Positions 37,701 through 47,482 of a stretch of 64,000 nucleotides of DNA are shown in pieces. The position numbers were made by a program, and so were the translations under genes. Source of the DNA: Lentzea tibetensis (GTDB lineage Bacteria; Actinomycetota; Actinomycetes; Mycobacteriales; Pseudonocardiaceae); the NCBI RefSeq assembly GCF_007845675.1, contig NZ_VOBR01000011.1, positions 148,682 to 212,681 of the forward strand, written 5' to 3'. Each line of letters opens with the position of its first letter. Position 1 is the first letter of the stretch. A model generated the notes under the pieces. That model was not told where the DNA came from, ran no database searches, and worked only from the letters and a program-made list of their open reading frames with translations.

Positions 37701-37780
37701 CGGCCGGTGCTCGACACCTGAGGACCGACCGGGGCTATCACGTGTTCAGCGCCCCGCAGGGCCGCTGGACCTTCGGCTAG
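34757..37780 (+). CDS. Secreted alpha-L-rhamnosidase, GH78 family
   Basis: A 1007-aa extracellular glycoside hydrolase that removes terminal alpha-L-rhamnose. The N-terminus (RRRDFLK, then a hydrophobic stretch) resembles a Tat signal. Next come a fibronectin-like segment with PRLSWVL, beta-rich Bac_rhamnosid_N and concanavalin-like domains, and the (alpha/alpha)6 catalytic domain. The GH78 catalytic motif reads DTPVFEKNGWTGDAQ at about residues 613-627, with Glu and Asp in the positions of the general acid region. A C-terminal beta domain closes the protein. The GTG at 34757 has GGAGG upstream. Its stop overlaps the stop of the convergent secreted barrel gene by 4 bp. It likely serves plant-glycoside scavenging. 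Confidence 0.92.
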   Translation: MRRRDFLKTPAVGVALSAPLFSAGSRLRVTGTTVEYADALLGTDVERPRLSWVLAADGTGVRQTAYEIEVDGWSSGKVDSGETVGIAYGGPALRPRTRYHWRVRVWDGDGCASEWSERSWWETGLLGAPWQARWIGAADASPSLAGASWIWSGDPVGTRWFRGVVTVPDNVVTLVATADDDFTLFVDGREVLRSPETADGWKIGRRAEVTGGRLVVAARVTNRAGNGGFLLRLGNSPVTGWKASATEVPGWEQPGFDDGAWPEATVLHPYGQGPWGSGVTVEEDPGPLLRKEFVLAKPVSRARLYISGMAYHETEINGLRVGDRVLEPGFTDYDRTVLYSVHDVTSSLRPGGNAIGVALGRGFYGMRTPNVFGWERPSWHGEPRLLAQLEISHPDGTTTTVASDGTWRVTAGPTRSNSLYTGETYDARLAPSGWTSPGFDDREWEPVVPMAAPKGVVRAQEHEPIRVVETVTPAGVSEPSPGVVVADMGRTMSGWTRITVDAPAGTVVRLLHGETLNPDGTVRMANRYVTGPRQQLDEYVCGGARETWEPRFSYKGFRYVQVTGARPVELAGRVVHSDVRKVSAFRCSEPLFERYDAAMRRTVTNNLHDIPTDTPVFEKNGWTGDAQLGAPSMLAEFGMARFLTKWIGDLADSQEQSGQLPLIVPSGGWGGKEMSPAPEWTTVYPFLLREMYRVYADTRVAERHWPALVRYLDWEIARLRDGLAVTALGDYHPPGVPGVPPEDTRLTATTYLYRGLVLTAELGEVIGKTTRYRSVADGLLKTFNATFLDPSGHYRTAKDPGYRQTSNAVPLAFGMVPPGSVAAVAGRLADELKARGNRLDVGCLGAHVLLQALSDNGYADLAHAVAAERAHPSWGYWFDNGADTMWEMWDTATRSRNHYYKGTVVEWLYTRIAGLRPGDAGFRTFTVRPEITKVSWARMDFESVRGRISVAWSVVDGRMRLTVEVPVGSTAEIHVPGSTEAPAGARHLRTDRGYHVFSAPQGRWTFG

Positions 37781-38787
37781 GAGCAGGCGAGGACGGGGGC
37801 CTGCGGGCGGCCGCCGCCGTTGAGGTCGGCGAGGCCGACGCCGCTCAGGCCGAGGATCGCCTGCGCGGTGGCACGCGGTGCGGTGGCCGGGTTGAAGCCG
37901 GACGCGTCGTGGGCGACGGCGCCCCGGTCGGCTGCCGGGCCGGTGCAGCCGACCTGGAGCGAACGCAGGAACGCGCGGCCCTTGGCCGCCGCGGCCGGGC
38001 GGTGCTTCGCGAGTGCCTCCGCGGCGAGACCGGTGCTGTTGGCGTTCGTCGGGCCGTTGGCGACGGCGCGGAAACCGCCGTCGGCCTGCTGCTGCGTGAC
38101 GAGCCACGCGACGCCCTCACGCGCGTCGGTCGCCCGGCCGGTCGCGAAGAGCGCCTGCACGACCATCGCGGTCGAGTCCACGTCGCTGGTGCAGGTGGCC
38201 TGGCCGAAGTTCAGCGGGAAACCGCCGTCGGCGCACTGCGTGCCCGCGAGGAACGTGACGGCCGGCGCGGGTGCACCGGCCTGGGTGCGGTCGAGCGCGA
38301 GCAGTGCCAGCGACTGGGTGAACGCGTTGCTGAAGTCGCCGAAGTCCGAGCGGTCGGAGAACCGGCCGGACGGGGTGAGCAGGCCGCGCAGGCCGGCGGG
38401 CAGGTCGACGCCGCCGAACGACGCGGGGTTCTTGTGCTTGACCAGTGCGGCCAGCATCAGCTTGGCGTGCGCACCGGCGTAGGCCTCGGTGCCGCTGCCG
38501 ACGTAGCCGGTCGTGATCTCCGGCCTGGCCAGCCAGGTGATCGCCTTCTCGGCATTGGCGTCCGACACCCGCGCCGACGCGAACGCGAAGATCGCGTCGA
38601 TCGTCAGGCCCTGGTCGGGGAACTTCTCGCCGCCGAAGTCCGCCTCGAAGCGTTCACCGTCGACCAGCTGGCGCGCGAGCCAGCCCGCGGCGGCCTCGGC
38701 CCGGTTGTGGGTTCCGGCGACCGCGGGTGCGGCCAGGCCGGTCGAGATGCCGCACAGCACGGCGACAGCGAGCACGAACCGTCTCAT
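37777..38787 (-). CDS. Secreted single alpha6/alpha6-barrel protein (transcobalamin alpha-domain-like)
   Basis: A 336-aa secreted protein. The signal peptide is about residues 1-25 (MRRFVLAVAVLCGISTG... AVAG). The mature part has repeats of the prenyltransferase/squalene-cyclase type, for example QCADGGFPLN, DVDSTAMVVQAL, QQADGGFRA and NANSTGLAAEAL, which build an alpha6/alpha6 barrel. No membrane anchor or catalytic Asp cluster is seen, so it is more likely a binder than an enzyme. It diverges from the cobalamin-riboswitch operon, whose first product carries two such barrels. Human intrinsic factor and transcobalamin use this same barrel. A soluble B12-capture role is inference. The ATG has a GGAGGAAG box. 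Confidence 0.75.
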   Translation of the reverse strand: MRRFVLAVAVLCGISTGLAAPAVAGTHNRAEAAAGWLARQLVDGERFEADFGGEKFPDQGLTIDAIFAFASARVSDANAEKAITWLARPEITTGYVGSGTEAYAGAHAKLMLAALVKHKNPASFGGVDLPAGLRGLLTPSGRFSDRSDFGDFSNAFTQSLALLALDRTQAGAPAPAVTFLAGTQCADGGFPLNFGQATCTSDVDSTAMVVQALFATGRATDAREGVAWLVTQQQADGGFRAVANGPTNANSTGLAAEALAKHRPAAAAKGRAFLRSLQVGCTGPAADRGAVAHDASGFNPATAPRATAQAILGLSGVGLADLNGGGRPQAPVLACS

Positions 38788-38924
38788 GAGACTTCCTCCC
38801 CCTCGGCCGCTCCGACGCGGCCGGACCGCATCAGGCTAACCACAAGATCCACTGCCCCGCGGTCGTGAGATCCGCCACGTGGAAACGTTGTGGCCAGGGT
38901 GAATGGGGGTCGGAGAGCCCAGAT

Positions 38925-39060
38925 CTTGGTGTTAGTCTCACTTCGCCGCCCGTGACGGGGAAGCCGGTCGAAGTCCGGCACTGTCGCGCAACCGTGGGTC
39001 ACTCATGTGACGAGTCGGGTCACCGCACGGGTGGATCACGAAGTCAGACCACTGCCGCGA
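38925..39060 (+). ncRNA. Cobalamin (B12) riboswitch
   Basis: The conserved B12 core is readable: GGGAAGCCGGT (38958-38968), AAGTCCGGCACTGTCGCGCAACCGTG (38971-38996) with its CGCAAC loop, and the closing AAGTCAGACC at 39041-39050. The order and spacing match actinobacterial cobalamin riboswitches. Cobalamin binding should switch off the downstream uptake operon. Exact ends are approximate. Confidence 0.9.
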
Positions 39061-39093
39061 GAGCAGGGGTGACGTTCGGCGCACGCGCCGGTC

Positions 39094-39119
39094 TCTCCTC
39101 CGAGCCGCAAAGGAGGAGA
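39094..39119 (+). promoter_or_regulatory. RBS-sequestering hairpin of the B12 riboswitch
   Basis: TCTCCTCC (39094-39101) pairs perfectly with GGAGGAGA (39112-39119), which is the ribosome binding site 2 nt before the GTG at 39122. An 8-bp stem over the Shine-Dalgarno sequence, directly after the aptamer, indicates control at translation initiation rather than by termination. Confidence 0.8.
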
Positions 39120-39121
39120 AC

Positions 39122-41674
39122 GTGAACCACACCCGGCGCAGGCACGTCGCAGCGCTGTCGTCCGTCGTCAGCATCGGCCTGGTCGTGGCCGTGGTGGCCG
39201 GTACGGCCTCGGCGGCGAGCGACCGCGTGGCGGCGAGGTCCAACTCCCAGTGGCTGGCGAAGCAGCTCAAACCCGACGGCACGCTCGAGAACCCGAACGG
39301 CGGGACGCTGCCCGACCACGGGTTGATGATCGACACGCTGTTCGCGCTGCACGCGTCGGGTGACGGCGCGCTGGCCGCGCCGATCGCGGGCTTCCTCGAC
39401 GAGGGCGGCCACGCGACCGACTACTTCACCTGGGACGGGCTCGTCCCCGGCGAGGGTTACGAGGCGATCATCGTCGGCGGTGCCGCCGCCAAGGTCCTGG
39501 TCGCGGCCGAGGTGTCCGGGCACGACCCGCGTTCCTTCGACGGCTACGACATGGTCGCCGAGACCAAGGCCGCGATCATGCGCTCCGGCCCGGACAAGGG
39601 CCGGGTCAGCGACTACACGAAGAACCCGGACTTCGCGGACTTCGTCAGCAACAACGCCAACATGTTCGGCCAGGCGCTCGGCGTCATCGGGCTGGCCGCG
39701 GCGGGCGAGAACGACCAGCTCGCGATCGACAAGCTGATCACCCAGCAGTGCTCGGAAGGCTACTTCCGGATCTTCTTCGGGCTCATCCCCACCGACGAGA
39801 CGGGCGACCACGTCACCCCGAACGGCCAGAAGATCTCCACGTGCGACGAGGGCAAGCCGTTCGGCCAGTCAACGCCGGACGGCGACGCGACGGGACTCGC
39901 GCTGTCCGCGCTGGTCGCCGCCCGTTCCGCGGGTGCTCCCGGCCTCGACGCGCCGATCGCGCGCACCGTCGCGTGGCTGAAGGCGAACCAGACCGCGAGC
40001 GGCGGGTGGGGTGGTGGCGTCGGCACCGAGGCGGCCAACACCAACAGCACCGGGCTGATCGCGCAGGCGCTCGCGGACGCCGGTGGGTCCGGCGCCGAGG
40101 TGGACCGGGGCGTCGGGTTCCTCAAGTCGGCGCAGGCCAACGCGGCCGCGGACGCCGGAAACGCGCTCGCTGGTCACATCGGTGCCATCGCGTACAACCC
40201 CGACTCCTACCTCGCCGGGCGGACCAGCGGGATCACCGCGCTCGACCCGTGGATCCGGGCGAGCGCGCAGGCCTCGCTCGGGCTCTCGCAGGTCGGGTTC
40301 TTCGCGCTGGCCAAGGGAGAGATCCCAGGGGACCCGTCCTCGACGACCGGCACGACGTCGACCACCACGACCACCACGACAACGACGACGATCCCGCCTG
40401 GGCCGCCGACGACCACCACGCCGACGACGACCACCGCACCGACCACGACCACGACCACGACCACGAGTCCGGAGGTCGTCCCGAACGCGCAGGGCGAGGC
40501 GCCCGGCAACGCCACGTCACCACCGCGCACGGTCGTGCGCACGGTGGTGCTGCCGCCGCCGACGAACAAGGCGCAGCCCGCCACGCCGACGCCCGCGTCG
40601 CGCCTCGGCGCGTACCTGGCGAACCAGCTCCTGGGCGGCGACCACGTCGAGGTCACGCAGGACGGCAAGACCTTCGTCGACTACGACGCCACGGCCGAAC
40701 TCGTGCTCGCGTTGCGCGCACTGGGTGAGCAGCCGACGGCCGTCGAGCGCGCGTCGAAGTTCCTGCTGACCCCGGAGTCGGTCAAGGCGTACGCGCACGG
40801 CGCGCCGTACGAGACGGGCGCGGCGTCCTACGCGGAACCGCTCGCGAAGCTGCTGATCGTCGCGAGGTTCGCGGCCGCGGACGAGGCCGCGAAGCAGCTG
40901 CACGACGACCTGACCGCGTTGCGCGGCCCGGACGGGAAGTTCACCGACAAGGGCTCGTTCGGCGACGCGGACAACACGGTGCGCAGGCACGCGTGGATCG
41001 CGATGGCGACCACCGACAGCACCGCGATCGACCTGCTGACCAAGCACCAGTGCGACGACGGGACGTTCCCCGCCGAGCTCACCACGGACAAGTGCGCGTC
41101 CGGCGACACCGCCGCGACCGCGGCCGCCGTGCTGGCGCTGAACAGCGGGCCGCGCACCGATGACCCACCCGCCACCGAATGGCCGGACGCCTGGTCGGAG
41201 CATCGCGCGACCGCACTCGTGGCGGCTGCGGCCGCGCTCACCGCGAGGACCGACGGCAAGGGCCTCATCACCGGTGACGTCGCGCTGAGCTCGGCCGTCG
41301 CGGGCGCCCGTCAGTTCGCCGGACTCGACGCCAGCGCCACCGCGCGCTCGCTCGGCGAGCTGGTGCCCGCCACCGGCGGCGTGCCGAACGCGGACGGCAG
41401 GGCCGATCTCTTCACCAGCCTGGCCGTCGCGTCCGGTGTCGCGGGCCGGTCGTGGGCGAGCGCGACCGGGTCGCCGGTCTCGCCGGTCGTGCGGCTGCCG
41501 CTGGCCGCGCACAAGGCGGAGCAGGCCGCGCAGGAGCCGCAACCGGTGCAGGCGCGGGCGCTGGCGGTCCACTGGCCCGCGTTGCTCATCGGGCTCGGCG
41601 GGATCGTGCTCGTCATCGCGCTGGGGCTCGTCGCGGGACGGGTTGTCGCGAGGAACAAGGGGGTAGCACCATGA
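39122..41674 (+). CDS. Surface-anchored two-barrel protein of the B12 uptake operon
   Basis: An 850-aa exported protein. Signal peptide about residues 1-32; first alpha6/alpha6-barrel region about 33-395 (NSQWLAKQLKPDG, TASGGWGGG, NTNSTGLIAQAL); Thr/Pro-rich spacer about 404-450; second barrel about 490-805 (RLGAYLANQLLGG, HQCDDGTFP); one C-terminal TM about 817-842 followed by RVVARNKG. It is thus held on the outer face of the membrane by its C-terminus. It is the first gene after the cobalamin riboswitch, and its GTG lies just past a hairpin that can mask its RBS. A role in capturing cobalamin or a cobalamin-carrier complex is inferred. The next gene starts within its stop codon (ATGA). Confidence 0.8.
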   Translation: MNHTRRRHVAALSSVVSIGLVVAVVAGTASAASDRVAARSNSQWLAKQLKPDGTLENPNGGTLPDHGLMIDTLFALHASGDGALAAPIAGFLDEGGHATDYFTWDGLVPGEGYEAIIVGGAAAKVLVAAEVSGHDPRSFDGYDMVAETKAAIMRSGPDKGRVSDYTKNPDFADFVSNNANMFGQALGVIGLAAAGENDQLAIDKLITQQCSEGYFRIFFGLIPTDETGDHVTPNGQKISTCDEGKPFGQSTPDGDATGLALSALVAARSAGAPGLDAPIARTVAWLKANQTASGGWGGGVGTEAANTNSTGLIAQALADAGGSGAEVDRGVGFLKSAQANAAADAGNALAGHIGAIAYNPDSYLAGRTSGITALDPWIRASAQASLGLSQVGFFALAKGEIPGDPSSTTGTTSTTTTTTTTTTIPPGPPTTTTPTTTTAPTTTTTTTTSPEVVPNAQGEAPGNATSPPRTVVRTVVLPPPTNKAQPATPTPASRLGAYLANQLLGGDHVEVTQDGKTFVDYDATAELVLALRALGEQPTAVERASKFLLTPESVKAYAHGAPYETGAASYAEPLAKLLIVARFAAADEAAKQLHDDLTALRGPDGKFTDKGSFGDADNTVRRHAWIAMATTDSTAIDLLTKHQCDDGTFPAELTTDKCASGDTAATAAAVLALNSGPRTDDPPATEWPDAWSEHRATALVAAAAALTARTDGKGLITGDVALSSAVAGARQFAGLDASATARSLGELVPATGGVPNADGRADLFTSLAVASGVAGRSWASATGSPVSPVVRLPLAAHKAEQAAQEPQPVQARALAVHWPALLIGLGGIVLVIALGLVAGRVVARNKGVAP
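40346..40470 (+). repeat. ACC/ACG-type microsatellite encoding the Thr/Pro-rich linker
   Basis: Low-complexity runs of ACG/ACC codons encode two poly-Thr tracts with a PPGPPTTTTPTTTTAP bridge. The stretch joins the two barrel domains and is likely an extended cell-wall-spanning linker. Copy number may vary between strains. Confidence 0.8.
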
Positions 41675-42252
41675 GAAGGGCACTGTCCGTCGCGTCCGTC
41701 CTCATCGGACTGATGGTCGCGGCGACACCGCAGGCGTCCGCTGTCGACCAGGCGTTGGGGTACGCGGGGATCTGCACCGGCGCGGACGCGCTGACCGGCA
41801 CCACCGTCGTGATCGACTTCCAGGAGCTCGACGGCAACGGCGGCGTCGCGGCGCCGACCATCACCCGCTGCTCGCCGAACGCCAGCCCCGGTACGAACCG
41901 CACGGGCATCAAGGCGTTGCAGGACGCGGGCATCGCGGTGACGGGTGTCGCGCAGTGGGGGCTCGGTTTCGTGTGCAGGCTGGAGAACCGGCCGTCGTCC
42001 ACCGAGGTGATCCGGCGCGCGAGCAACCCGAACTACAAGGAGGCCTGCGTGCGCACGCCGCCGGCCGAGGCGTACTGGAGCTACTGGCACGCTGACGGCG
42101 CGGGCACCACGTGGACGTACAGCAACTTCGGCGCGTTGAACCGCAATGCGATCCCCGGTGGTTTCGAGGGCTGGTCGTTCTCGCTGAACAAGACCGCGAC
42201 CACGAACCCGCCGCCCCGCGTCACGCCGCGGAACCCGGCCGTCAACCCGTGA
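41671..42252 (+). CDS. Secreted DUF4430-like protein (transcobalamin beta-domain-like)
   Basis: A 193-aa secreted protein with a signal peptide (about 1-24, ending ASAVDQA). The mature part has GTTVVIDFQEL, a 'TGIKALQDAGI' helix, FVCRLENRP, and the aromatic YWSYWHADG segment with WTYSNFG. This arrangement resembles the DUF4430 beta domain found at the C-terminus of intrinsic factor and transcobalamin. Four Cys residues suggest disulfides in the exported protein. No anchor is visible. It lies in the B12 riboswitch operon and overlaps both neighbours by four bases. A cobalamin-contacting role is inference by analogy. Confidence 0.7.
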   Translation: MRRALSVASVLIGLMVAATPQASAVDQALGYAGICTGADALTGTTVVIDFQELDGNGGVAAPTITRCSPNASPGTNRTGIKALQDAGIAVTGVAQWGLGFVCRLENRPSSTEVIRRASNPNYKEACVRTPPAEAYWSYWHADGAGTTWTYSNFGALNRNAIPGGFEGWSFSLNKTATTNPPPRVTPRNPAVNP

Positions 42253-43160
42253 GTCGAGTCCTGTGCGCGGTGGCCTTCCTGGTGTTGGCCACCGCGCCTC
42301 CCGCGCACGCGATCGACCAGAGCAAGGGCCACCCCGGCTACTGCAGGGACGGCACCGGCGTCACCGTCGTCGTCGACTTCCAGCAGCTGGGCGGCACGAC
42401 GATCGTGCGGTGCAACCCGCAGACCACGCGCGGCACCGGCCTGGACGCGTTGAAGGGCGCGGGTTTCCAGATCGCGGGCGTGCAGCGCTGGGGCGAGGCG
42501 TTCATCTGCCGCGTCGAGAACCGGCCTTCGGCGACCGAGGAGCTCCCGGTCAAGGGGCGTGACCGCTACCGGGAGATGTGCGTCGACACGCCACCGGCCG
42601 CGGCCTACTGGTCGTACTGGCACGCGGGCAACAACTGCGGCTGGGAATACAGCCAGTGGGGTGTGAAGAACCGCGACTTCAGCGCCGGTGGTTTCGAGGG
42701 CTGGTCGTTCTCGCTGAACGCGGGGGCGGACACGAACCCGCAGCCGCGGATCGCGCCCGTCCGGCCGGGCACCGAAGGCGGCGGGTGCAACGCGAAAGAA
42801 GAGCCTCCGCCGGTGTCCAACGACCTGAACGAGAAGCAGCCCGTGCAGGGCAGGCAACCTGGTGAGCAGCAGCGGCAACAGACCGAGGACACGTCCGCGC
42901 CGCAGCCGGGCAGTCCGACGTCGGCCGCGCTGCCACCACCGAAGCCGCGGCCGAGCGCGTCGGCCAGGCCGTCCGCGCCGAACCCGGCGGACAACGTGAA
43001 GTTCACCGGCGGCGAGGACGCCGAGGACGTCACCGTCGCGATCCAGCGGCAGTCCGGCGCCAGCGACTACGCGCCGTGGGTCGCGGGCGCCGGCGTGCTG
43101 GCGCTGGGTGCGGGGGCGTTCTTCGTCGGACGAAGGCGCAAGCGCGCGCAGGAGTCCTGA
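42249..43160 (+). CDS. Membrane-anchored DUF4430-like protein
   Basis: A 303-aa paralogue of the preceding protein. Signal peptide about 1-22 (ending AHAIDQ); the same core (VTVVVDFQQLGG, TGLDALKGAGF, FICRVENRPS, YWSYWHAGNN, WGVKNRDFSAGG, FEGWSFSL). A Pro/Gln/Ser-rich stalk of about 100 residues follows, then a C-terminal TM (about 276-297) and RRRKRAQES. It is therefore a stalked surface protein. The GTG start overlaps the previous stop (GTGA), and its stop overlaps the ecfT start. The pair of soluble and anchored forms suggests hand-over of ligand to the membrane transporter. Confidence 0.72.
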   Translation: MSRVLCAVAFLVLATAPPAHAIDQSKGHPGYCRDGTGVTVVVDFQQLGGTTIVRCNPQTTRGTGLDALKGAGFQIAGVQRWGEAFICRVENRPSATEELPVKGRDRYREMCVDTPPAAAYWSYWHAGNNCGWEYSQWGVKNRDFSAGGFEGWSFSLNAGADTNPQPRIAPVRPGTEGGGCNAKEEPPPVSNDLNEKQPVQGRQPGEQQRQQTEDTSAPQPGSPTSAALPPPKPRPSASARPSAPNPADNVKFTGGEDAEDVTVAIQRQSGASDYAPWVAGAGVLALGAGAFFVGRRRKRAQES

Positions 43161-44269
43161 TGGCCCGGTACTTCCTGCCGCGCGACCTGCACCCGGCCGC
43201 GTGGTGGGTGTGGGCGCTCGGCCTGTCGGTGGCGGCCACGCGGACGACGAACCCGTGGCTGCTGCTGATGATCGTGGCGGTCGCCGGGTACGTGGTGGTC
43301 GCGCGGCGCACGGACGCGCCGTGGGCGATGGCGTTCCGGATGTACCTCTACCTCGGCGCGGTCATCGTGTGCGTGCGGGTGTTCTTCCGGCTCGTGTTCG
43401 GTGGCGCCGAGGGGTCGACGATCATCCTGCGGCTGCCGGAGATCCCGCTGCCCGCGTGGGCGGCGGGCATCCGGTTGCTCGGTGACGTGTCCGCGGAGTC
43501 GTTGCTGGGCGGGCTGTACGACGGTCTGCGCCTCGCGACGATGGTGATCTGCCTCGGTGCCGCGAACGCGCTGGCCAACCCGAAGCGGCTGCTCAAGGCC
43601 ATGCCGCCCGCGCTGTACGAGGTGGGCACGGCGGTGATCGTCGCGCTGTCGGTGTTCCCGCAGCTCGCCGAGAGCGTGCTGCGGGTGCGCCGGGCGCGCA
43701 AGCTGCGCGGTGGCGCGAGCGGGAAGCGCGTCGCCGCGCTGCACGCGATCATCATCCCGGTGCTCGAGGACGCGCTGTCGCGGTCGTTGCAGCTGGCCGC
43801 GTCGATGGACTCGCGCGGCTACGGCCGGGCGGGACTGGTCGAGGCGCGCGCCCGGCTGCTCACCGGTGCCCTGATGATCGTCGGACTGATCGGCGTGTGC
43901 GTCGGCGTCTACGCCACTTTGGACGGTTCGACGCCGCGTTTCCTCGCCGCACCAGTGCTTTCCTCCGGCGTCCTGGTCGCGCTGGCCGGGTTCCGGCTGG
44001 CTGGCCGCCGCGTGCGGCGCACCCGGTACCGGCCGGACCGCTGGCACCTGCCCGAACTGGTGGTCGCCGCGAGCGGCATCGGTGTCGCCGCGGTCATGTT
44101 CGTGACGTCCACGGTGAACCCGATGAACCTCAACCCGTCGCTGATCACGCTGTCGTGGCCCGCGTTGTCGTGGTCGCCGCTCCTCGGCGTGCTGCTCGGC
44201 GTGATCCCCGCCGTGCTCACCCCGCTGCCCGCGTCACCGCACGTCCCCGCCGAGAAGGTCGCCGCATGA
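43160..44269 (+). CDS. ecfT: ECF transporter T component (EcfT/CbiQ family)
   Basis: A 369-aa membrane protein with several TM segments at both ends. The T-component coupling helices carry Ala-Arg-Gly-type motifs: RRARKLRGG and the later DSRGYGR, which dock onto the ATPases. It couples ATP hydrolysis to movement of the substrate-binding S subunit. It starts at an ATG overlapping the upstream stop and is followed by ecfA with ATGA coupling. The riboswitch upstream predicts a cobalamin or corrinoid substrate. It is longer than typical T components, with extra C-terminal TM segments. Confidence 0.88.
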   Translation: MARYFLPRDLHPAAWWVWALGLSVAATRTTNPWLLLMIVAVAGYVVVARRTDAPWAMAFRMYLYLGAVIVCVRVFFRLVFGGAEGSTIILRLPEIPLPAWAAGIRLLGDVSAESLLGGLYDGLRLATMVICLGAANALANPKRLLKAMPPALYEVGTAVIVALSVFPQLAESVLRVRRARKLRGGASGKRVAALHAIIIPVLEDALSRSLQLAASMDSRGYGRAGLVEARARLLTGALMIVGLIGVCVGVYATLDGSTPRFLAAPVLSSGVLVALAGFRLAGRRVRRTRYRPDRWHLPELVVAASGIGVAAVMFVTSTVNPMNLNPSLITLSWPALSWSPLLGVLLGVIPAVLTPLPASPHVPAEKVAA

Positions 44270-45867
44270 TCGAACTGGACCACGTCAGCTTCACCTATCA
44301 CGGGCAGACCGAGCCGGTGCTGTCCGATGTGACGCTGTCCATCGGCGAGGGCGAGCTGGTGCTGTTCGCCGGCCAGACCGGTGCGGGCAAGTCGACGTTG
44401 CTCGGCACGATCAACGGCCTCGTCCCGCACTTCACCGGCGGCCACCTGGAAGGCACCGTCTCGGTCGACGGCGAGACCACGCGTTCCCGCCCACCACGCG
44501 AGTTCGCCCACCTCGTCGGCGTGGTCGGCCAGGACCCGCTGGCCGGGTTCGTGACGGACACCGTCGAGGACGAGCTGGCGTACGGGATGGAACAGCTCGG
44601 CCTGGCGCCGCAGGTGATGCGCCGCCGCGTCGAGGAGACGCTCGACCTGCTCGGCATCGCGGAGCTGCGCGGCCGGGCGCTGCGCACGTTGTCCGGCGGC
44701 CAGCAGCAGCGCGTCGCGATCGGGTCGGTCCTGACGACGCACCCGAAGGTGCTGGTGCTGGACGAGCCGACGTCCGCGCTCGACCCGATCGCGGCCGAGG
44801 AGGTGCTGGCCACGCTGGCCCGCTTGGTGGAGGACCTGGGGACGACGGTGCTGATGGCCGAGCACCGGATGGAACGCGTGATCCCGTTCGCCGACCGGAT
44901 GATCTACGTGCCCGGCACCGGCGGTGTCGTGGACGGCACGCCCGCCGAGGTGCTGCGGGACACCCCGATCGCGCCGCCGATCGTGCAGCTGGGCAGGCTC
45001 GCCGGCTGGGACCCGCTGCCGATGTCCGTGCGCGACGCGCGTCGTGCGGCCGGCTCGCTGCGTTCTTCACTCGGCTCCGCGCCGTCGCGGCCGGTTGGGG
45101 CCGGCCCGGTGTTGCTGAGCAGCTCCGACGTCGTGGTGCGGTACGGGCCGAAGGTCGCCGTGCGGGCGGTGTCGCTCGACCTGTGCGCGGGGTCGGTGCT
45201 CGCGATGATGGGGCGCAACGGGTCCGGCAAGTCGTCGCTGCTGTGGGCGTTGCAGGGCTCCGGTCCGCGGCGGGGTGGGACCGTGCGGGTCGACGACACG
45301 GACCCCAAGTCGCTGGACAGCGCGCGGGCCCGCAAGCTCGTCGGGATGGTGCCGCAGACCGCCAGTGATCTCCTCTACCTGCAGACGGTCGCGGACGAGT
45401 GCGCCGCCGCCGACGTCGAATCCGGTGCCACGCCGGGGTTCTGCAGTTCGCTGCTCGACCGGCTGGCGCCGGGGATCTCGCGTTCCGCGCACCCGCGTGA
45501 CCTGTCCGAGGGGCAACGGCTGGCGCTCGTGCTCGCGGTCCAGCTGTCCGCCGCGCCGCGGATCATGCTGCTCGACGAGCCGACCCGCGGCCTGGACTAC
45601 ACGGCGAAAGCGGCACTGGCGACCATGATCACCGACCTGGCGGCGGAGGGCCGGGCGGTAGTCGTGGCGACGCACGACGTCGAGTTCGTCGCGTCGGTCG
45701 CGGACCGGGTCGTGGTCATGGCCGAGGGCGAGATCGTCTCGGACGGCCCGACCGGCGAGGTGCTGGGCGGCTCGCCCGCGTTCGCCACCCAGGTCGCCAA
45801 GATCATGGGGGAGTCGTGGTTGACCGTGGACGACGTGCGTTCTGCGCTGCCGCAGGTGGTCCGGTGA
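44266..45867 (+). CDS. ecfA: ECF transporter double ATPase (fused EcfA-EcfA')
   Basis: A 533-aa protein with two ABC ATPase domains in tandem. Domain 1: Walker A GQTGAGKST (about 36-44), Q-loop GQDPLAGF, signature LSGGQQQR, Walker B VLVLDEPTSALD, switch His in AEHRM. Domain 2: Walker A GRNGSGKSS (about 318-326), Q-loop PQTASDL, signature LSEGQRLA, Walker B IMLLDEPTRGLD, switch His in ATHDVE. The second signature has Glu in place of the second Gly. It energises the EcfT/S complex in the cobalamin-riboswitch operon. The start overlaps the ecfT stop. Confidence 0.93.
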   Translation: MIELDHVSFTYHGQTEPVLSDVTLSIGEGELVLFAGQTGAGKSTLLGTINGLVPHFTGGHLEGTVSVDGETTRSRPPREFAHLVGVVGQDPLAGFVTDTVEDELAYGMEQLGLAPQVMRRRVEETLDLLGIAELRGRALRTLSGGQQQRVAIGSVLTTHPKVLVLDEPTSALDPIAAEEVLATLARLVEDLGTTVLMAEHRMERVIPFADRMIYVPGTGGVVDGTPAEVLRDTPIAPPIVQLGRLAGWDPLPMSVRDARRAAGSLRSSLGSAPSRPVGAGPVLLSSSDVVVRYGPKVAVRAVSLDLCAGSVLAMMGRNGSGKSSLLWALQGSGPRRGGTVRVDDTDPKSLDSARARKLVGMVPQTASDLLYLQTVADECAAADVESGATPGFCSSLLDRLAPGISRSAHPRDLSEGQRLALVLAVQLSAAPRIMLLDEPTRGLDYTAKAALATMITDLAAEGRAVVVATHDVEFVASVADRVVVMAEGEIVSDGPTGEVLGGSPAFATQVAKIMGESWLTVDDVRSALPQVVR

Positions 45868-46706
45868 GGGCGCCGTCGGTGGTGCGGCTAGGCCCGCGCT
45901 CGGCCGCGGTGCTGGGCCTGGCGTCGCTGGCCGGCCTGATGATGTTCGTGTGGCCGCTGCTGGTGCGCGTCGAACCGCAGTCGATGCAGCACGGCCCGGA
46001 CGCGCCGTTCGTGTTCATCGGGATCCTGCCGATCCTGATCATCGTGGTGCTGGCCGAGCTGTCCGAGGGCGGCATGGACTCGAAGGCGCTCGCGATGCTC
46101 GGCGTGCTGTCGGCGGTGAACGCGGCGCTGCGGCCGCTGGGTGCGGGGACCGCGGGCATCGAGACGGTGTTCTTCATGCTCGTGCTGTCCGGGCGGGTGT
46201 TCGGCGCGGGCTTCGGTTTCGTGCTGGGCTGCACGTCGCTGTTCGCGTCGGCACTCCTCACCGCCGGTGTGGGCCCGTGGCTGCCGTTCCAGATGATGGC
46301 GTCGGCGTGGATCGGCATGGGCGCCGGTCTGCTGCCGCGGCGGGTGCGCGGCAAGGCCGAGATCGCGATGCTCGTCGGGTACGGGATCGTGGTGGCGTAC
46401 CTGTTCGGGTTCATGATGAACCTGTGGTTCTGGCCGTTCATCACCGACGCCGAGGTGCCGTACCACGACGGCCACATCTCGTACGTGCCCGGTGATCCGG
46501 TGCTGGAGAATCTGCACCGGTTCGCGGTGTTCACCCTGCTGACGTCGACCGCGGGCTGGGACACCGGCCGCGCGATCACCAACACCATCGCGATCCTGGT
46601 GCTCGGCCCGGCTGTGCTGGCCACGTTGCGCCGCGCGTCGCGGCGCGCCTCGTTCGGTGCGGTGGCGACGTTCGATCAGGACCTGCGGGCCACCGCGCTC
46701 AAGTAG
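45864..46706 (+). CDS. ECF transporter S component (predicted cobalamin-specific)
   Basis: A 280-aa integral membrane protein with about six TM segments, coded directly after the double ATPase with GTGA overlap. The N-terminal region SAAVLGLASLAGLMMFVWP carries small residues of the kind S components use to bind EcfT. It is the best candidate for the substrate-binding subunit. Cobalamin specificity is inferred from the upstream riboswitch, not from visible binding residues. The last 31 bp overlap the convergent methyltransferase gene. Confidence 0.8.
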   Translation: MRAPSVVRLGPRSAAVLGLASLAGLMMFVWPLLVRVEPQSMQHGPDAPFVFIGILPILIIVVLAELSEGGMDSKALAMLGVLSAVNAALRPLGAGTAGIETVFFMLVLSGRVFGAGFGFVLGCTSLFASALLTAGVGPWLPFQMMASAWIGMGAGLLPRRVRGKAEIAMLVGYGIVVAYLFGFMMNLWFWPFITDAEVPYHDGHISYVPGDPVLENLHRFAVFTLLTSTAGWDTGRAITNTIAILVLGPAVLATLRRASRRASFGAVATFDQDLRATALK

Positions 46707-47482
46707 TTGATGTGGCCGTAGAACTCGCCCTCGTCCGACCGGCGCCGTGCCTCGGACTTGAGCGCGGCGGCCATGTCGCCGCTGATGCGCCCGGCGCTGT
46801 GCAACGCGTCCGCGCCGCGGTCGATGACCGCGAGCAGGTACCCGCCGGACGACGGCGCCTCGACGTAGCTGTGGCCGCGCAGCCGGATGTCGCCGAACCC
46901 CGCGTCGCGCAGCAGCACCGGTAGCTTCCGCGCGAGCCACGGGTCGTGGATCAGGTTCTCGGCGCACGCGTCCGCGCACGCCTGCAGCGGGTCGTTCGGG
47001 CTGTGCGCGACGCTGACCGTCACGTAGTCACCGTCGAACACGGCGAGCGTTCCGCCCGGCCTGAGCAGCCTGCGCGCCTCGGCCAGCGCCTCGTCCGGCG
47101 AGGGGATGTGGCACAGCGTGGTGTGGAAGACGACCACGTCGAACGAGTCGTCCTCCAGCGGCACCTCACGCCCGTCGCCGAGGACGAACGTGAGGTTCGG
47201 CAGGTCCCGTGCCAGTTCGCGCGCCTTCTCGACGAAGAGGGGCGACGGGTCGACACCGACCACCTCACCCACGCCGGGCAGCGCGGCGAGCGTCCGCGCG
47301 ACCGGGCCGGTGCCGCACCCGATCTCGGCCACGCGGGCGCTCGGCGGAAAGTCCACATCGGACAGATACGCCGTGCGCATCTCTTGCTGCTGCGGGTCTG
47401 CTGCCCGCAGCTCGAGTATCCCGGCCAGCTGCTCGACCACGGCTGCGTCGGCCTGGCTGATGGTGGCGTAGACGTCCGGCAC
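46676..47482 (-). CDS. SAM-dependent methyltransferase (UbiE/COQ5-like)
   Basis: A 268-aa class I methyltransferase. Motif I is VAEIGCGTGPVARTLA (about 51-66), motif II EVVGVDPSP, then GDGREVPLEDDSFDVVVFH. The C-terminal part is longer than the catalytic fold and may cover the substrate site. The start is a GTG at 47482. It reads against the ECF S-component gene and overlaps it by 31 bp. It is 10 bp beyond the stop of the solute-binding protein gene and could be co-transcribed with it. The substrate is not identifiable. Confidence 0.85.
   Translation of the reverse strand: MPDVYATISQADAAVVEQLAGILELRAADPQQQEMRTAYLSDVDFPPSARVAEIGCGTGPVARTLAALPGVGEVVGVDPSPLFVEKARELARDLPNLTFVLGDGREVPLEDDSFDVVVFHTTLCHIPSPDEALAEARRLLRPGGTLAVFDGDYVTVSVAHSPNDPLQACADACAENLIHDPWLARKLPVLLRDAGFGDIRLRGHSYVEAPSSGGYLLAVIDRGADALHSAGRISGDMAAALKSEARRRSDEGEFYGHINYLSAVARRS

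Follow-up and report, generated by a model that had tools for sequence, protein, structure and literature searches.

The general idea of a toroid and a transcobalamin-C domain working with CbiO/CbiQ for vitamin B12 has been in print since 2007, when Burroughs et al. predicted that such proteins scavenge B12 or its precursors in low-GC Gram-positive bacteria (PMC1796856). The systems they describe come from low-GC Gram-positives, planctomycetes and euryarchaea, in hosts that usually lack key enzymes of B12 synthesis (PMC1796856), and DUF4430-type domains have been placed in the transcobalamins themselves (PMC4350170, PMC1796856). Here we analyse a 64,000-nucleotide stretch of Lentzea tibetensis DNA (assembly GCF_007845675.1, contig NZ_VOBR01000011.1, positions 148,682 to 212,681; hereafter the window, in whose numbering all coordinates of the locus are given), and propose from its sequence that an operon in it probably encodes a cobalamin-repressed, corrinoid-scavenging system.

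The locus encodes two barrel proteins (B1 and B2), two small proteins (D1 and D2), EcfT (T), a double EcfA (A) and an S component (S), and all seven frames are open where the original prediction had put them. Its features are as follows.

37777-38787, minus strand: B1, predicted secreted single alpha/alpha-toroid, SCO2321-like, with one N-terminal hydrophobic segment and no C-terminal anchor
38932-39077, plus strand: adenosylcobalamin riboswitch aptamer (RF01482 match; core-model match at 38951-39028)
39094-39119, plus strand: 8-bp hairpin over the B2 Shine-Dalgarno sequence, candidate expression platform (RNA fold)
39122-41674, plus strand: B2, two toroids, a Thr/Pro-rich linker and a C-terminal membrane segment (homology, hydropathy)
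41671-42252, plus strand: D1, predicted free exported DUF4430-like protein, SCO2322-like (profile comparison, hydropathy)
42249-43160, plus strand: D2, predicted exported DUF4430-like protein with a Pro/Gln-rich stalk and a C-terminal membrane segment at residues 275-293 (profile comparison, hydropathy)
43160-44269, plus strand: EcfT (PF02361, 2.1e-11; start set by overlap)
44266-45867, plus strand: EcfA-EcfA' double ATPase (ABC_tran in two stretches, 2.7e-50)
45864-46706, plus strand: S component (weak matches to ECF S families)

The genes B2-D1-D2-T-A-S follow one another at 39122-46706 on the plus strand, and B1 diverges from them on the opposite strand. Since consecutive genes overlap at every joint, by 1 nt between D2 and T and by 4 nt at the other four, the operon is very probably one coupled unit; overlap with the preceding gene also served to revise the start codons of S (GTG at 45864) and T (ATG at 43160). 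Hydropathy analysis gave B1 and D1 an N-terminal hydrophobic segment only and B2 and D2 an additional C-terminal one, from which the window would hold one free pair (B1 and D1) and one anchored pair (B2 and D2).

A cobalamin riboswitch over the operon, as originally predicted, was recovered by the adenosylcobalamin model RF01482, which matched over its full length (1-149) with 48.9 bits (gathering score in Rfam, 50) and, for the 9.8 kb searched, an E of 9.4e-7. The default Rfam scan lists no riboswitch because this match falls 1.1 bits short of gathering, and it was found by an E-value scan; the general model RF00174, whose cut-off is 31.5 bits, scores the same aptamer at 27.4. A riboswitch core model, R1, built from 13 sequences with that of the window among them (alignment A7), gave the aptamer 78.6 bits, the runner-up match in the window reaching 16.6 bits. 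The adjoining stretch 39078-39140 folds with -29.2 kcal/mol, an energy that 2 of 200 shuffled versions also attain (z -2.84), and its hairpin at 39094-39119 is a plausible translational off-switch for B2.

Riboswitches also precede the related operons. D2 relatives occur in 13 of 41 genomes searched, the host being one of the 13, and each of the remaining 12 has a cobalamin-class aptamer in its upstream stretch, which reaches the gathering score in 11 of them and 29.1 of the required 31.5 bits in the last; seven of the 12 belong to the short AdoCbl-II type. A search with the S component found at least 546 relatives in one collection, the best 80 loci of which, all Actinomycetota by title, were kept. 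R1 has 119 matches in these loci. Where a main run has 800 nt or more of upstream sequence, a match lies within 700 nt upstream on the same strand in 65 cases out of 66 (14 more runs came too close to a contig end and stand outside the 66), and of the separate B or D units with enough room 37 out of 44 carry a match of their own, against a chance expectation from match density of about 3% by our arithmetic. The count gains a little from the splitting of runs at riboswitches that fell between genes, and many of the loci are closely related to one another. The foreseen co-occurrence of these families with B12 riboswitches across actinobacteria is thus seen. Units without one are five first barrels in Nocardioides, one D in Kribbella and one D in Micromonospora, together with the main run of L113. 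Two places, the divergent pairs of L068 and L071, were checked with Rfam's own model, applied to the genomes behind 40 of the 80 loci, and both are confirmed among the matches listed. Sixteen of the 119 R1 matches lie near the operon and precede none of the B, D, T, A or S units, among them L063:11015, L065:11728, L067:11317, L075:10082, L122:10047 and L125:10046.

Both barrel proteins match the NCBIfam family SCO2321 (B1, 4e-37; B2, 8.4e-24) below its curated cut-off of 300 bits, and the family has four matches in the host genome, all at the present locus and none elsewhere. The toroids of B2 lie at about 39233-40306 and 40595-41536 and its membrane segment at residues 820-838, with one further borderline hydropathy peak within the first barrel. 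A profile of 44 barrels (A3) compared with solved chains found squalene-hopene cyclases best (whole-sequence E 1.2e-31, summed over repeats) and also the thioester domains of complement and alpha-2-macroglobulin; individual members match PF13243 (28 of 44) and PF00432 (18 of 44) at E 0.01, and 42 of 44 match SCO2321 at E 0.001. By this homology the barrels are alpha/alpha toroids, which together with the hydropathy supports the two-barrel surface protein and the divergent secreted single-barrel paralogue of the original prediction. Two cysteines, C185 and C199 in B1 numbering, are invariant, which suggests a disulfide between them.

D1 and D2 match the NCBIfam family SCO2322 (2.8e-6 and 1.9e-6, respectively; 28 bits against a cut-off of 85), and neither matches DUF4430 directly in a Pfam search, so that profile comparison was needed for the link. 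The D family alignment (A2, 57 rows) has one invariant and three nearly invariant cysteines. DUF4430 itself is matched in 51 of 296 genomes of the host's phylum, and 32 such proteins, 30 from DUF4430 loci and two from the regions L172 and L173 described below, were aligned (A5). A2 against A5 gave a probability of 86-90% and a score of 37.6-40.2, compared with at most 20.7 for 300 column-permuted versions of A5, 10.8 for the reversed profile and 10.3-13.2 for three unrelated alignments, and the DUF4430-like reading of the free D1 and the stalked D2 stands on this comparison. Against solved chains, A5 matched best 3u7z, a putative metal-binding protein (0.0018), then transcobalamin-1 (E 0.015) and transcobalamin-2 (E 0.29), with unrelated-looking proteins between these two, among them two P-II proteins at 0.17-0.18. 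The A5-to-transcobalamin step would be weak if taken alone; it is in line with published work that places DUF4430-type domains in transcobalamins. Significant profile similarity thus points to D1 and D2 as remote DUF4430/transcobalamin-C relatives, in the transcobalamin-C clade of the SLBB superfamily.

Canonical DUF4430 genes are also found beside the system. In L172 (G389, same class as the host) a riboswitch is followed by D, T, A, S and B in that order. The frame that comes after B on the same strand, with a likely start about 240 nt past the barrel stop, encodes a protein that exceeds the DUF4430 cut-off (E 6.5e-8). T-AA-S-B is preceded by a canonical DUF4430 gene in L177 and L179; no Rfam cobalamin riboswitch was found in the 1.4-1.7 kb around the start of the DUF4430 gene in these two. 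A canonical DUF4430 gene in L173 (G326), with no other system genes nearby, has a riboswitch core upstream (R1 66.5 bits; 27.1 bits by Rfam, below gathering). A barrel from a canonical-DUF4430 operon matched cyclases and prenyltransferases and not transcobalamin at E 1. Weak R1 matches about 3 kb further upstream in L177 and L179 score 31.4 and 25.3 bits, and matches of this kind (25-31 bits) near canonical DUF4430 genes stand at L177:12207-12265 (minus strand), L175:12362-12484 (minus) and L179:5677-5741 (plus).

The remaining genes form an ECF transporter with its own module, in which EcfT (PF02361, the CbiQ family), two EcfA domains and an S component share one operon, as had been proposed. 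The S component is recognised by matches to ECF S families below their cut-offs (PF07155, 1.6e-4; TIGR04518, 0.0024) and by a hydropathy profile with seven peaks, two of them overlapping. A SAM-dependent methyltransferase gene (46676-47482, minus strand; PF08241, 2.7e-26) converges on the S gene and gives no sign of belonging to the system.

Gene order and co-occurrence tie the parts together. The commonest layouts in the 80 loci are B-D-T-A-S (26 runs) and B-B-D-D-T-A-S, as in the window (18 runs). Among 200 genomes of the host's order, S is present in 46, D in 46 and B in 47, with S and D together in 39, S and B in 39, and D and B in 44. The two halves were predicted to be separate exported proteins; in the window they do lie on separate chains, and D and B are fused on one chain in seven open reading frames of the 80 loci, six D-first and one B-first. 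One fused relative belongs to Actinomadura hibisca (L077:9858-11414, minus strand). A further D-B fusion (L184:5613-9257, plus strand) ends, by eye, in LPETG and a hydrophobic segment, in a genome in which the S gene was not detected. An Acidimicrobiia metagenome-assembled genome encodes another (L123:2-2062, minus strand), whose C-terminal repeats resemble S-layer homology motifs by eye and look like another means of holding the carrier at the surface. D-T-A-S without a barrel also occurs: none was found in the 14 kb of G024 (L035), which has an upstream riboswitch, nor in the whole G142 genome (L186) at E 1e-20.

The host itself has a coherent B12 regulon. RF00174 at E 0.01 finds six places in its genome, that of the window below the cut-off; the other five (L046-L049) precede CbtA, metE, nrdA/nrdB, a chelatase-like gene with cobO, and cobN, all of which are cobalt/B12 genes or genes of B12-independent isozymes. 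S occurs in 22 of 50 genomes of the host's order without cbiC and in 24 of 150 with it (p 1.5e-4, uncorrected for kinship). As a marker of B12 auxotrophs the system is therefore borne out in part, S being commoner where cbiC is absent, yet the host has cbiC.

From these parts a working scheme can be drawn. When adenosylcobalamin is scarce, the riboswitch would free the ribosome-binding site and the operon would be translated as a coupled unit. The barrel and DUF4430-like proteins would be exported, B2 and D2 held at the membrane by their C-terminal helices and B1 and D1 presumably released. A barrel and a DUF4430-like domain, on separate chains, could then enclose a single corrinoid between them in the manner of transcobalamin's alpha and beta domains, a two-chain clamp that homology, co-occurrence and natural fusions point to. 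The S component would receive the ligand and the EcfT/EcfA-A' module would import it, by analogy with known ECF transporters. That B1 and D1 act as a diffusible corrinoid carrier, a haptocorrin counterpart or protein siderophore that loads B2/D2 and then S, is a more speculative and rather doubtful extension; if true, it would make a vitamin relay of a monoderm out of the separable halves of an animal carrier, even in a host that probably synthesises B12.

Several observations weigh against corrinoid scavenging by a transcobalamin-like clamp. The animal-carrier Pfam families are matched by none of the 44 barrels at E 0.01, and transcobalamin is absent among the 42 solved sequences matched at E 1, the barrels being nearer to cyclases; by sequence they are not the animal alpha domain. 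The carrier likeness of the original prediction accordingly survives in toroid homology, the DUF4430 relation and natural fusions, and 'intrinsic-factor-like' overstated the barrel sequence. A Pfam search of the 57 D members finds DUF4430 in one (E 0.0056), D compared with solved chains reaches a best match of E 3.2, and in the A5 search a SUI1 factor that looks unrelated (E 0.019) does about as well as transcobalamin-1. Among solved S components S has no match at E 10, so the ligand is not given by homology; S stands alone in five of the 46 genomes that have it, and D and/or B occur without S in eight of the 200. B1 has no riboswitch of its own detectable on the minus strand by the E-value Rfam scan or R1, in contrast to most separately transcribed barrels of relatives. 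The host, finally, has CbiC and other corrin genes and may not need uptake; it probably makes B12 and scavenges too.

We nevertheless favour a cobalamin-repressed corrinoid scavenger because of the aptamer with its Shine-Dalgarno hairpin and the aptamers before relatives' operons, the D-DUF4430 profile similarity, the transcobalamin matches of A5, the D-B fusions, the co-occurrence of S, D and B, the canonical DUF4430 genes beside a barrel (L172) and ahead of T-AA-S-B (L177, L179), and the cobalt/B12 or isozyme genes behind the host's other five riboswitches. The same machinery might serve another ligand, be it a precursor or relative of B12 (cobinamide, other cobamides) or a different tetrapyrrole, with the riboswitch merely reporting B12 status: control by a riboswitch does not dictate what is imported, S has no characterised relative by sequence, and ECF-CbrT takes both cobalamin and cobinamide (PMC5997447). 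By homology, toroid and DUF4430-like domains point instead to a corrinoid of cobalamin size, and we regard this alternative as unlikely.

Less likely still is that the B12 riboswitch governs a CbiMNQO-type cobalt importer, whose exported partners would bind metal or shield the cell surface. EcfT does belong to the CbiQ family, and cobalt would feed the B12 synthesis that the host appears to have, but S has no CbiM-type match at E 0.1 (Pfam, NCBIfam), a separate host riboswitch precedes CbtA, a probable cobalt transporter, and the fusions of toroid and DUF4430-like domains would be left unexplained. Equally improbable is an enzymatic role, in which the exported barrels would act as cyclases or modify corrinoids rather than serve as carriers. 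Their best solved relatives are the squalene-hopene cyclases noted above, in which the DXDD motif has a role, and D-x-D is kept at this site (B1 residues 202-207, A3 columns) in 39 of 44 barrels; the last D is present in 0 of 44, and export, D-domain fusions and riboswitches before most separate barrel units fit binding better.

A literature search found neither a study of this operon in actinobacteria nor one on the function of SCO2321/SCO2322. SCO2321 is named in PMC9237094, where a peptide derived from its signal sequence is used, and the available text of PMC3766115, PMC4428469, PMC8914203 and PMC12452182 mentions neither the operon nor SCO2321/SCO2322. The actinobacterial, divergent and mostly split version of the system, the two-barrel stalked proteins and the pervasive riboswitch control thus appear to be new, no description having been found. 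B12 is large and scarce and its capture at monoderm surfaces is poorly known, and the exported proteins carry placeholder names only (the SCO2321/SCO2322 families) despite the abundance of S relatives. If corrinoid scavenging is right, a B12 uptake route would be named for genera that include Streptomyces, Amycolatopsis, Micromonospora and Nocardioides, an animal-type two-domain clamp would exist in bacteria in split and fused forms, and whether two separate chains form one B12 clamp would become a directly testable question.

Among known systems, animal transcobalamin, intrinsic factor and haptocorrin share with this one a toroid and a DUF4430-type domain, which in relatives of the locus also occur fused; theirs is one chain, whereas here the chains are separate and the barrel sequence is nearer to cyclases. 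The surface B12 lipoproteins of Bacteroides form a Gram-negative outer-membrane system whose folds differ from those here. They too capture B12 at the surface before a transporter (PMC6143338). ECF-CbrT of Lactobacillus delbrueckii is likewise an ECF-type uptake system, B12 being the likely cargo here (PMC5997447), but CbrT uses a shared ECF module, the available text of that report mentions no exported carrier, and the S component here has no solved match. Closest is the system of Burroughs et al., with an exported SLBB domain, a toroid fused N- or C-terminally to it, a second SLBB paralogue in the operon and a CbiO/CbiQ-type transporter. From what is described there, the present version differs in belonging to Actinomycetota, in being too divergent for a DUF4430 match, in carrying the halves mostly on separate chains, and in its two-barrel stalked proteins, its riboswitch control and a host with corrin-synthesis genes.
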